From Gracilibacillus suaedae (lineage in GTDB: Bacteria; Bacillota; Bacilli; Bacillales; Amphibacillaceae): DNA of 34,315 bases. The notes beneath the pieces are model-generated. The model saw only the letters and a program-made list of their open reading frames with translations, was not told the origin of the DNA and did not search any database. Below, piece by piece: positions 2,842 through 27,104 of this stretch (the first letter of the stretch is position 1; the number at the start of each line of letters is the position of its first letter). The position numbers and the translations under genes are program-made. The stretch is taken from NCBI RefSeq assembly GCF_017599345.1, contig NZ_JAGFVL010000018.1, forward strand, positions 1-34,315. Direction: 5' to 3'.

Positions 2842-3085
2842 AAAAAAATCTCCCTGATCCCAAAATGGGACGAGAGAGATTCCCGCGGTACCACCCAACA
2901 TTAGTGTTAAGCTATTCGTTAACACCCACTTAAACTCCTTAACGCGGATAACGACAAAAGCTACTAGACTTGTTCACTTTTGTAACATCTGAGGCGAGTT
3001 CGTAACAGGATAGGAGTGACTCACACCGACCGCCACCTCTCTTAGCCTAATCCTATAACTACTATTCCTCTTCATCGTCATATAT
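2842..3085 (-). promoter_or_regulatory. T-box leader controlling leuS
   Basis: The minus strand carries the invariant T-box GGGTGGTACCGCGG (2883-2896). It is followed by a terminator hairpin (2842-2881) of ATCTCTCTCGTCCCA against TGGGATCAGGGAGAT, ending in seven T. Upstream lies a Stem I region beginning GATGAAGAGGAATAGTAG (about 3062-3079), with closing arms ATAGGA/TCCTAT. In its specifier loop I read GAA-CTC-GCC, giving a Leu CTC specifier at 2996-2998. Uncharged tRNA-Leu pairing would stabilise the antiterminator and switch leuS on during leucine starvation. The T-box call is firm; the exact specifier assignment is an inference. Confidence 0.93.
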
Positions 3086-17934: not shown

Positions 17935-18034
17935 CTCTTATCTGCCAAGTAATACCTGCTGGAAGTAGCACAGTGCTTATTTAGCCTGTTGCTGAGAATT
18001 CGTCGGGCCAGTTCCCTCCTTCTCTCTTGATAAG
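17935..18034 (-). ncRNA. SAM-I (S-box) riboswitch of cysP-cobA
   Basis: The minus strand begins CTTATCAAGAGAGAAGGAGG and continues GGAACTGGCCCGACGA, CTCAGCAAC, and closes GCAGATAAGAGG. These are the conserved S-box blocks: P1 CTTATC/GATAAG, P2 kink-turn GA region, CTCAGCAAC core. The terminator follows immediately. SAM binding should stop transcription into cysP-cobA. Confidence 0.95.
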
Positions 18035-18078
18035 ATCATATGTTATTTTCATTTCTTACCACCGTTGATGATGTACAT

Positions 18079-18169: not shown

Positions 18170-18198
18170 GTTTGTATTATATTTCCATAATTATTATA

Positions 18199-18300
18199 TC
18201 TTATCGAGAGAGGTCTAGGGACTGGCCCGATGACACCTCAGCAACCAGCAAAGCAATTGTATGGTGCTAAATCCAGACGGTAATTTACCAAAGATAAGAG
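18199..18300 (+). ncRNA. SAM-I (S-box) riboswitch of metI-metC
   Basis: S-box blocks in order: CTTATCGAGAGAGGTCTAGG, GACTGGCCCGATGACACC, TCAGCAACC, GGTGCTAAATCCAG, and the closing AAGATAAGAG pairing with the 5' CTTATC. Followed by a strong terminator at 18317-18352. Confidence 0.97.
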
Positions 18301-25685: not shown

Positions 25686-26480
25686 ATGATGACCAACTAC
25701 AAAGCTCTTTTCTTAGATATTGATGGGACTATTCTACGACGTGATCATACGATTGAGGATACGACTAAGCTTGCCGTTAAACAAGCACAATATAAAGGGA
25801 TTGAAGTATTCCTTGCTACTGGACGTCCTCTCCATGAAGTAGATGATATCGCTAAAGAATTAGAGGTAGATTCCTTTATAGGTTACAACGGGGCATATGC
25901 GATTTATGATGGAAAAACAGTAGTTGATGAGCCGATATCTAGCTCTGTGATTGATCAATTTTTAGATGTCGCTAAACAAAATGAACATGAAATGATTCTG
26001 TATACTAATGAATTAAATTTAGTGACTTCAGAATCAAAGCAAGTAGTAAAAGATTTCATTGATTATTTTGATTTGAAGAATCACCAAGCATATGAAGATA
26101 TCTATCGCGATCAAATATTAGGTATTACGCTGATGGATGTTCAACCTAATGAACCAGTTCTTTATGATGTAGAGCAAGAGGATATTTATTTTTCACAAGT
26201 AAATGTAGCTGGCTTAGAGCATTGTTATGATATGATCAGAGAAAATGTCAACAAAGGGCAAGCTATTCAAAAAGTACTCCAAGAACTAGACATCCCAGCT
26301 GAGTCAGCGATTGCCTTTGGTGATGGGATGAATGATAAACAAATGCTGCAATATGTCGGTGAAAGCTTTGCAATGGCAAATGCAAGTCCTGAAGTGTTTC
26401 AATACGCCAAACATCGCACCACTTCCGTAGAGGAATCTGGAATCTATAACGGCTTGAAGCAATTAGGGATTGTTAACTAA
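25686..26480 (+). CDS. HAD-superfamily Cof-type phosphatase
   Basis: HAD-IIB (Cof-type) hydrolase of 264 aa, usually a phosphatase of sugar phosphates or small metabolites. Motif I is FLDIDGTI (D11 and D13), motif II lies in LATGRP, and motif III/IV is the lysine NKGQAIQK followed by FGDGMNDKQM. There is a cap insertion in the middle. The gene starts at one of two adjacent ATGs 13 bases after lipA, with AAGGGAG upstream, so it is probably the third cistron of the lipM-lipA transcript. Substrate unknown. Confidence 0.9.
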   Translation: MMTNYKALFLDIDGTILRRDHTIEDTTKLAVKQAQYKGIEVFLATGRPLHEVDDIAKELEVDSFIGYNGAYAIYDGKTVVDEPISSSVIDQFLDVAKQNEHEMILYTNELNLVTSESKQVVKDFIDYFDLKNHQAYEDIYRDQILGITLMDVQPNEPVLYDVEQEDIYFSQVNVAGLEHCYDMIRENVNKGQAIQKVLQELDIPAESAIAFGDGMNDKQMLQYVGESFAMANASPEVFQYAKHRTTSVEESGIYNGLKQLGIVN

Positions 26481-26591
26481 TCCACATTAGATATAAACTG
26501 CGAAGTAATGAAAATACTGTTTGTTCGAAACTAAAAGCATAGTCACCTATGAAGTAATTTTGACATATATCGTGATTATAACTGCCACTCC

Positions 26592-26709
26592 GGCTGCCCA
26601 CTTCCCTTTCCGTGGGGTTTGCCCTTCATCTAATTTTTTCGAGCAAATACCGCTCGAAAAAGTGGATCTTCAGGTCAAACAATTCCCACAGGAGTGAAAG
26701 TGGGCGGCC
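26592..26709 (-). repeat. Fold-back element, copy 1 (minus orientation)
   Basis: Outer arms GGCTGCCCACTT (26592-26603) and AAGTGGGCGGCC (26698-26709), one G-T pair. Inner perfect 10-base stem TTTTTCGAGC (26635-26644) / GCTCGAAAAA (26652-26661) with the 7-base loop AAATACC. The flank GTGGATCTTCAG and CCCACAGGAGT match the element at 26890-27002 in reverse orientation. No coding sequence. Confidence 0.85.
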
Positions 26710-26770
26710 TTCGTTAAGATATGCTCCACAACACTAATTCGAAATCAACCAGTCGATTTCTCACCAACCA

Positions 26771-26820
26771 TAGTCGCATAGGGTGCGACTACTCAGGGGG
26801 GTTTACAGCCGATTAGCATT
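26771..26820 (+). repeat. Hairpin and TACAGNCGATTAGCAT repeat, copy 2
   Basis: An 8-bp stem TAGTCGCA/TGCGACTA with loop TAGGG (26771-26791), running into GACTACTCAGGGGGG and TTTACAGCCGATTAGCAT, the second copy of the repeat at 21845-21881. Noncoding. Confidence 0.6.
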
Positions 26821-26889
26821 GCAATAAAACAGAAAAGTTTAGTACCTTGAGTCCATTTCATTCTATACTCAGCGAACAAAAATAGCGGA

Positions 26890-27002
26890 GGCAGAATACG
26901 GAGACTCCTGTGGGACAGCGAGAGCTGAAGATCCACTTGGTAAAGTGGTTTTCTTTACCAAGTTAGCTGAAGTCGAGCCCACCGAAAGCGCAGTATTCTG
27001 CC
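26890..27002 (+). repeat. Fold-back element, copy 2 (plus orientation)
   Basis: Outer arms GGCAGAATAC (26890-26899) and GTATTCTGCC (26993-27002). Inner perfect 11-base stem ACTTGGTAAAG (26935-26945) / CTTTACCAAGT (26953-26963) with a 7-base loop. Conserved linkers ACTCCTGTGGGA and CTGAAGATCCAC. I recall GGAGACTCC...CTGAAGATCCACTTGGTAAAG-type repeats as common in halophilic Bacillaceae genomes. No transposase gene is nearby. Confidence 0.88.
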
Positions 27003-27104
27003 GGAGCGAATGGTAGCACTCTTCAAAATTCAGCGTGGAAGAGAGCAAATCCTTTTCACGTTATTTCATAGTATATCAATTATCTGAACAGTTATATATT
27101 AGAT

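Follow-up and report, generated by a model that had tools for sequence, protein, structure and literature searches.

A composite repeat with two divergent, unlike hairpin arms in Gracilibacillus suaedae, and its structured relatives across the Bacillales

The element at the locus

The window analysed here is the whole stretch of 34,315 nucleotides from Gracilibacillus suaedae (contig NZ_JAGFVL010000018.1, positions 1 to 34,315). Within it, a composite element occupies positions 26489-27080, with outer limits that are approximate to a few bases and that were placed by aligning 13 full copies with 300-bp flanks, by end logos and by the end pair L211. It starts about 9 bases beyond the stop codon that closes ORF 25686-26480 on its upstream side. 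The left inverted end, AGATATAAACTGCGAAGTAA (26489-26508, plus strand), was located by an end-pattern search and end logos, and the right inverted end, GTTATTTCATAGTATAT (27060-27080, minus strand), is degenerate in the window copy. Between the ends lie arm A (118 nt, 26592-26709, minus strand) and arm B (113 nt, 26890-27002, plus strand), whose 5' ends are separated by a spacer of 180 bp (26710-26889). Read on the minus strand, arm A contains the outer stem GGCCGCCCACTT/AAGTGGGCAGCC and the inner stem TTTTTCGAGC/GCTCGAAAAA; read on the plus strand, arm B contains the outer stem GGCAGAATAC/GTATTCTGCC, a middle stem CTGTGGG/CCCACCG with one mismatch in the window copy, and the inner stem ACTTGGTAAAG/CTTTACCAAGT.

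Both arms are recovered by a covariance model of host-genome copies, arm B at 121.3 bits and arm A at 102.9 bits, although it should be noted that both window arms are themselves in the alignment behind this model; even at E up to 1, the window yields no third arm. The sequence CTGAAGATCCAC, with at most one mismatch, occurs at two sites in the window against 0.17 expected, and 0/100 shuffles reached two. An earlier note on this DNA had described two fold-back elements in an inverted pair, and its coordinates, linkers, stems and 7-base inner loops were all confirmed on re-inspection. Both fold-backs are real; however, they are halves of one composite element, since the homology of full copies extends to inverted ends outside the stretch that had been noted.

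No sigma-70 consensus promoter was found in the window element, its one terminator-like site is at chance level, and no Rfam 15 family matches the arms in the window or in 12 Bacillales loci. Elsewhere in the window, two SAM riboswitches at 17935-18036 (minus strand) and 18198-18300 (plus strand) are also arranged divergently, with about 160 bp between them, and a T-box leader at 2863-3084 (minus strand) lies upstream of the minus-strand ORF 368-2785.

Copies in the host genome and their ends

In the host genome (G000; 4.65 Mb, 64 contigs), a DNA search with the 426-bp core (26585-27010) yielded 99 matches, 13 of which, the window copy included, are nearly full length with 79-100% identity. 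When aligned with their flanks, the full copies are bounded by inverted ends of the ATAWACTGCGAAGTAA type. The end pattern with at most two mismatches occurs at 114 host sites, compared with 8 for the same pattern read backwards. The host counts are lower bounds, with 100 of the 114 end sites listed and at least one arm (C57:68093) lying outside the fetched loci.

A comparison of 51 ends of the left type with 46 of the right type, among which a few are probably false, revealed that the ends are shared among elements and have a half-palindromic target preference. The sequence immediately outside partly mirrors the end itself: on the left, TTCRYAGTA lies outside and ACTGCGAA inside, and on the right the outside sequence is CACAaaA. 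Such junctions, with TTCRYAGTA outside and ACTGCGAA inside, look like those of a tyrosine recombinase, and the host genome contains seven Phage_integrase matches. Ends of the ACTGCGAAGTAA type also enclose other interiors (L205, L236, L244, L265, L272, L276, L292, L295 and L306), and such other interiors in the host genome carry GCGGACATTTGTTC-like or GGGATATCCCCGGAAG-like repeats; two further host elements with the same ends, L210 and L274, are short. The ACTGCGAAGTAA-ended structure is a chassis with interchangeable structured contents. With at most two mismatches allowed, a host-type end lies within 250 bp outside 8/34 Gracilibacillus arms as against 6/116 arms of other genera, and the reversed pattern was found within that distance of none of these arms.

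The insertion sites were compared with those in related genomes. No length of target duplication stands out (identity 0.22-0.37; the candidate end pairs include false ones). At the window site, the nearest relative, G014, shows a left end that is of this type but degenerate, and its interior, where readable (part of it is N), is different; in G016 a remnant resembling the right end persists, and G002 has unrelated sequence. At 11 of 12 other host sites tested, G014 also has an insert between joined flanks, and thus these sites give no evidence of recent movement; for the twelfth, the G014 flanks fall on two contigs. Among the 11, L256 and L298 align with G014 nearly throughout, L298 with a deletion, and in L245 the alignment is confined to the flanks; at most of the other sites, G014 matches the flanks and the outer parts at 81-97%, and much of the interior has no in-place alignment. 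This pattern suggests that the insertions are old and that interiors may have been exchanged or turned over inside them. At the 12 sites with joined flanks, no clean empty site was readable in G016 or G002, where the alignments are too gapped.

Fold of the arms and covariation

Each arm comprises an outer stem, an internal loop, a middle stem, a second internal loop and an inner hairpin, and the hairpin as a whole is imperfect. Two alignments were used: one of host arms (47 of the 75 that passed the filters, thinned by hand) and one of Bacillales arms (the best 150 of 155 matches, from 100 of at least 114 contig stretches, 90 of the 100 giving an aligned arm). The length is 90-120 nt in 132 of the 150 aligned Bacillales arms. 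Among the 47 host arms, standard pairs fill 94.1% of the cells of the stems 1-10/113-122, 19-25/98-104 and 49-59/70-80. The host alignment has the near-invariant linkers ACTCCT, GAAGA and GGAAAG, and the inner internal loop occurs in two alternating forms, ATCCACTT/AAGTTAG and ACCCCGCA/GAGGAGG. In both alignments, the asymmetric internal loops are conserved across arms. Pairing and covariation extend beyond the outer stem at -4/+4 and -5/+5, G.A is frequent at -1, -3 and -6, and the foot has the consensus AGCGGA ... GGAGCG in 148 arms.

The claim of the earlier note that selection acts on the structure is supported by the covariation of the stems. The 47 host arms score 0.465 for covariation, compared with a mean of 0.163 in shuffles and a maximum of 0.144 for slid partners; for 147 distinct Bacillales arms, whose alignment was fitted to the model and thereby favours the score, it is 0.464 against 0.130 and 0.082, respectively. 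In each set, 0/500 shuffles reach the observed score. The slid-partner controls carry particular weight because related sequences can exceed shuffles even without structure. Counting the pairs that have changed on either side is cruder and less telling against shuffles if both sides must differ: it gives 19/28 pairs in the host arms (equalled by 5/500 shuffles) and 24/28 in the Bacillales arms (32/500). Compensating change had originally been read from the two window copies alone, which provide no such evidence, as they belong to two arm subfamilies, each present in many copies, and these account for their different stems; the compensation is instead supplied by the many copies of the family. 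Overall, the folded shape of the arms seems to matter.

Several unusual arms should also be mentioned. One has become a nearly perfect palindrome (L224:907-1022) and two appear to be half-arm chimeras (L241:882-1007 and L242:635-741), which suggests events of the kind expected from template switching at hairpins. Arms of approximately 160-173 nt in L216, L233, L237, L247, L279, L286 and L300 have a longer segment in place of the inner hairpin, and these copies are alike. In Lentibacillus kapialis (L044, L068 and L072), inverted repeats of the CCAAAATCTATGGTTGA type enclose the arm and form a still longer palindrome.

Wobble pairs provide an indication of which strand folds. One pair is T.G in 136/149 arms. 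At the other model pairs, there is no bias when the internal-loop positions are kept (G.T 110 vs. A.C 95, p = 0.33), and the A.C cells come mostly from one position in a conserved internal loop. After exclusion of four pair positions (that T.G pair, plus three in the conserved internal loop), which were chosen after the first table had been seen, G.T exceeds A.C by 106 to 25, and by 22 to 8 (p = 0.016) when the arms are thinned to 22 sequences below 70% identity. In the host alone, for which columns 20 and 50-52 are omitted, the bias is weak (35 vs. 25). This suggests that the folding strand is the one with GGAGACTCC...GGAAAG, as RNA or single-stranded DNA, rather than a cruciform of both strands.

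Paired arms are divergent and unlike

The arrangement of the arms follows two rules. Adjacent arms are divergent in 41/41 pairs at the fetched host loci (115 arms, i.e., 120 model matches minus 5 weak reverse-strand echoes) and in 49/50 pairs within 800 bp at 100 other loci. The spacers of the host pairs cluster near 98-101, 112, 171 and 180, and 33 host loci, some at contig ends, have a single model match.

Paired arms are also unlike each other. Identity was compared in 39 of the 41 host pairs, L283 and L287 being omitted as near-identical to L252. Within pairs it averages 0.632 and does not exceed 0.805, so that 0/39 pairs reach 0.85, whereas 461/2964 comparisons between arms of different host elements do. 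In 5000 random pairings of host arms, the mean identity was never as low as that observed; an average of 6.0/39 random pairs reached 0.85, and only 5/5000 pairings contained none. In other Bacillales, 0/49 pairs reach 0.85 and the maximum is 0.79, the host set alone having been compared with random pairing. The difference between the stems of the two window arms is therefore real, but given these figures it is a family-wide rule and not a change between two copies, and this rule accounts for what was seen in the window. Two causes are conceivable: loss of long identical inverted repeats, or an inability of arms to fold singly when they could pair with each other.

Distribution and genomic setting

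With strict filters and up to 18 candidates scored per genome, the covariance model matches arms in 148/199 Bacillales genomes and 76/97 genera. The exact 16-mer GGAGACTCCTGTGGGA was found in at least 114 contig stretches, all but six from Bacillales, and in these six, all of which fell within the model search of 100 stretches, no arm was aligned. Among phage and plasmid records searched, no phage and one plasmid record contained arms. Elements are under-represented between divergent genes (9/75, as against 63/222 for other gaps; p = 0.005), with no significant enrichment between convergent genes (p = 0.19), and 24/100 overlap a mechanically called ORF by more than 40 nt. TATAAT-like hexamers are not enriched upstream of the arms (211 vs. 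223 in shuffles). No description of the repeat was found in the open-access literature searched, including by sequence words. The arms thus belong to a real, order-wide structured repeat that is undescribed as far as the open-access literature shows.

Search for a mobilising protein

The earlier note had suggested either a structured RNA or a hairpin recognised by a protein such as a RAYT-type transposase, and had proposed that a RAYT or IS200-like gene be sought elsewhere in the genome. The RAYT suggestion was not supported. No match to RAYT (NF047646) was found in the host genome at E 1e-8, and the only Y1_Tnp match there is a truncated IS200-like piece without arms. RAYT-like genes occur in 120/199 Bacillales genomes at E 1e-8, 53 of them above the curated cut-off. 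Of 22 RAYT-like loci from 13 arm-bearing genomes, 0 are flanked by arms with either the host-built or the order-wide model; the two proteins checked from these loci score 79.8 and 61.4 against the NF047646 cut-off of 80. Co-occurrence is not significant (93/148 genomes with arms vs. 27/51 without, p = 0.25), in a test that is limited by the relatedness of the genomes and by strict filters applied to up to 18 arm candidates per genome. RAYT was consequently not retained as the probable mobiliser.

Other Y1 transposases were considered as well. Outside one genome of the same genus, G006, arms lie beside 0/37 other Y1 loci (35 places). A search of 114 contig loci and of 111 host loci revealed no TnpA, and its queries did recover the positive controls L421, L145 and L397. 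In G006, eight of nine Y1_Tnp matches were fetched, and all of them lie between two divergent arms, 1 of the 16 arms being weak. The gene concerned is IS200-like, and multicopy composites (L421-L424) combine the arms with a broken copy of it, with outer ends GAGACTGGGACAGAAGTA in those that were aligned. However, this IS looks like a passenger, because it is related to the armless host piece and because none of the matches listed spans the profile without a stop. Y1 remnants between arms were seen in G006 alone, and the IS was not taken as the likely autonomous partner. Thus, searches of genes, flanks and co-occurrence found no protein partner of the arms.

Comparison with known repeats

Dispersed repeats with partly similar properties are known from several bacteria. 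The bcr1 repeat of the Bacillus cereus group is a dispersed non-coding Bacillaceae repeat, and the BOX elements of pneumococcus are a modular structured repeat; by description, the former is set apart from the window family by a different size and by its restriction to one taxonomic group, and the latter by other modules and another taxon. The window element has terminal inverted repeats, as does a MITE, and its stems covary, as in structured RNA families, although unlike these it has no Rfam 15 match. The Bhal-1 repeat of Bacillus halodurans (74 bp, 36 copies) is, by description only, another Bacillaceae stem-loop repeat with a predicted conserved structure (PMC2267715). The arms also resemble the ends of IS200/IS605 elements, whose subterminal hairpins are recognised by TnpA on single-stranded DNA (PMC6006769); unlike these, the window element has no tnpA, and the Y1 loci checked outside G006 have no arms.

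The closest parallels are offered by REP, BIME and REPIN elements (GTAG and CGTC superfamilies), which are likewise multicopy palindromes, often found in pairs of opposite orientation (PMC3733652). In many REP families, though not all, the pairs are preferentially heterodimeric without an obvious explanation, and protection from SbcCD has been suggested for such heterodimers by Di Nocera and colleagues (PMC3733652). REPs lie mostly between unidirectional or convergent genes (PMC3733652), and elements of the window family are similarly scarce between divergent genes. However, REPs measure 20-40 bp and their foot bears the tag GTAG or CGTC (PMC3733652), whereas the window arms have 113 and 118 nt, those of the family mostly 90-120 nt, and the foot is AGCGGA ... 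GGAGCG. The present arms further differ in having three stems with conserved internal loops and, with regard to GTAG REPs, in the absence of a RAYT from the host and of arms beside the 22 RAYT-like loci checked elsewhere. The text of PMC3733652 never uses the words Firmicutes, Gram-positive or Geobacillus; it has Bacillus twice, in neither case for a REP.

Interpretation

It appears, on balance, that the window element is probably a copy of a non-autonomous, multicopy, two-armed Bacillales repeat that works like a REP/BIME heterodimer. A single strand of each arm would have to fold back upon itself. With a partner complementary to the entire arm, one long hairpin would arise instead, and this hairpin would misfold or be destroyed, so that only unlike pairs would persist. 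With less certainty, the folded arm may be the recognition site of a putative trans-acting protein, which would most likely act on single-stranded DNA during replication and so spread or keep the element. Our best guess is therefore that a putative protein recognises the hairpin in single-stranded form; that the arm acts as single-stranded DNA is a tentative view, and that it acts as RNA is doubtful. Within the host, arms are often carried inside the ACTGCGAAGTAA-ended chassis, which probably has its own mobilising enzyme.

Some of the same observations would also suit a structured RNA. On this reading, each arm would fold as an RNA in its own right or as a module of a 3'-UTR, and might serve, for instance, as a signal for processing or stabilisation; with paired arms diverging, read-through from either side would always yield one arm in the folding sense. 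Covariation together with conserved asymmetric internal loops, the outer extension, which is rich in G.A and whose pairs at -4/+4 and -5/+5 covary, and the avoidance of gaps between divergent genes all point in this direction. So do the G.T bias outside the excluded positions, which fits a single folded strand, and the T.G pair of 136/149 arms. This reading is nonetheless somewhat unlikely: one arm would be antisense in any transcript crossing the element, hexamers of the TATAAT type are no more frequent upstream than in shuffles, and the element has neither a consensus promoter, nor a terminator-like site above chance, nor an Rfam family. That the matching stems are a mutational artefact, with template switching correcting quasi-palindromes in the absence of selection, is most improbable. 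The palindromised arm and the two chimeras suggest that such events occur, and hairpin-templated repair could be the source of part of the covariation; however, correction of this kind should remove the asymmetric internal loops as well, although these are conserved, and predicts no strand bias, yet G.T exceeds A.C once the internal-loop positions are excluded.

The remaining alternatives concern mobility. A REPIN-like element whose arms are cut in trans by RAYT or an IS200-type TnpA is improbable. REP dimers are similarly organised (PMC3733652), RAYT-like genes are common in Bacillales, and the fetched G006 matches do sit between divergent arms; against this, the host has no RAYT and only a truncated, armless IS200 piece, the G006 gene looks like a passenger, no arms flank the 22 RAYT-like loci or the 37 other Y1 loci checked outside G006, and neither the TnpA searches nor the co-occurrence test revealed an association. 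It is also very unlikely that the element is a plain MITE of a transposon with ACTGCGAAGTAA ends and that its arms are passive filler. The ends are indeed common to many elements, some of them short (L210, L274) or with other interiors, but they accompany few arms of other genera (6/116, compared with 8/34 in Gracilibacillus), the G006 composites have quite different outer ends, and no target duplication was read. Filler would not be expected to covary or to obey the rule of unlike arms, and the conservation of the arm across the order with other flanks already disfavours this explanation.

Returning to the heterodimer-like repeat, a broader proposal, to which we give slightly less than even credence, is that the arms represent an unnamed order-wide class of multi-loop hairpins of approximately 90-120 nt in divergent, obligatorily unlike pairs, which would be recognised in folded, single-stranded form by a putative dedicated Bacillales protein, or else a large undescribed class of RNA. 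In either case, a structured sequence present in 148/199 sampled Bacillales genomes stands without a name or a partner found thus far, and the covariance model makes the family searchable. If the proposal is true, the class would have evolved separately from REPs as their counterpart in Bacillales. The rule of unlike arms offers a natural test of why heterodimers prevail among REPs, a preference that has no obvious explanation according to PMC3733652.
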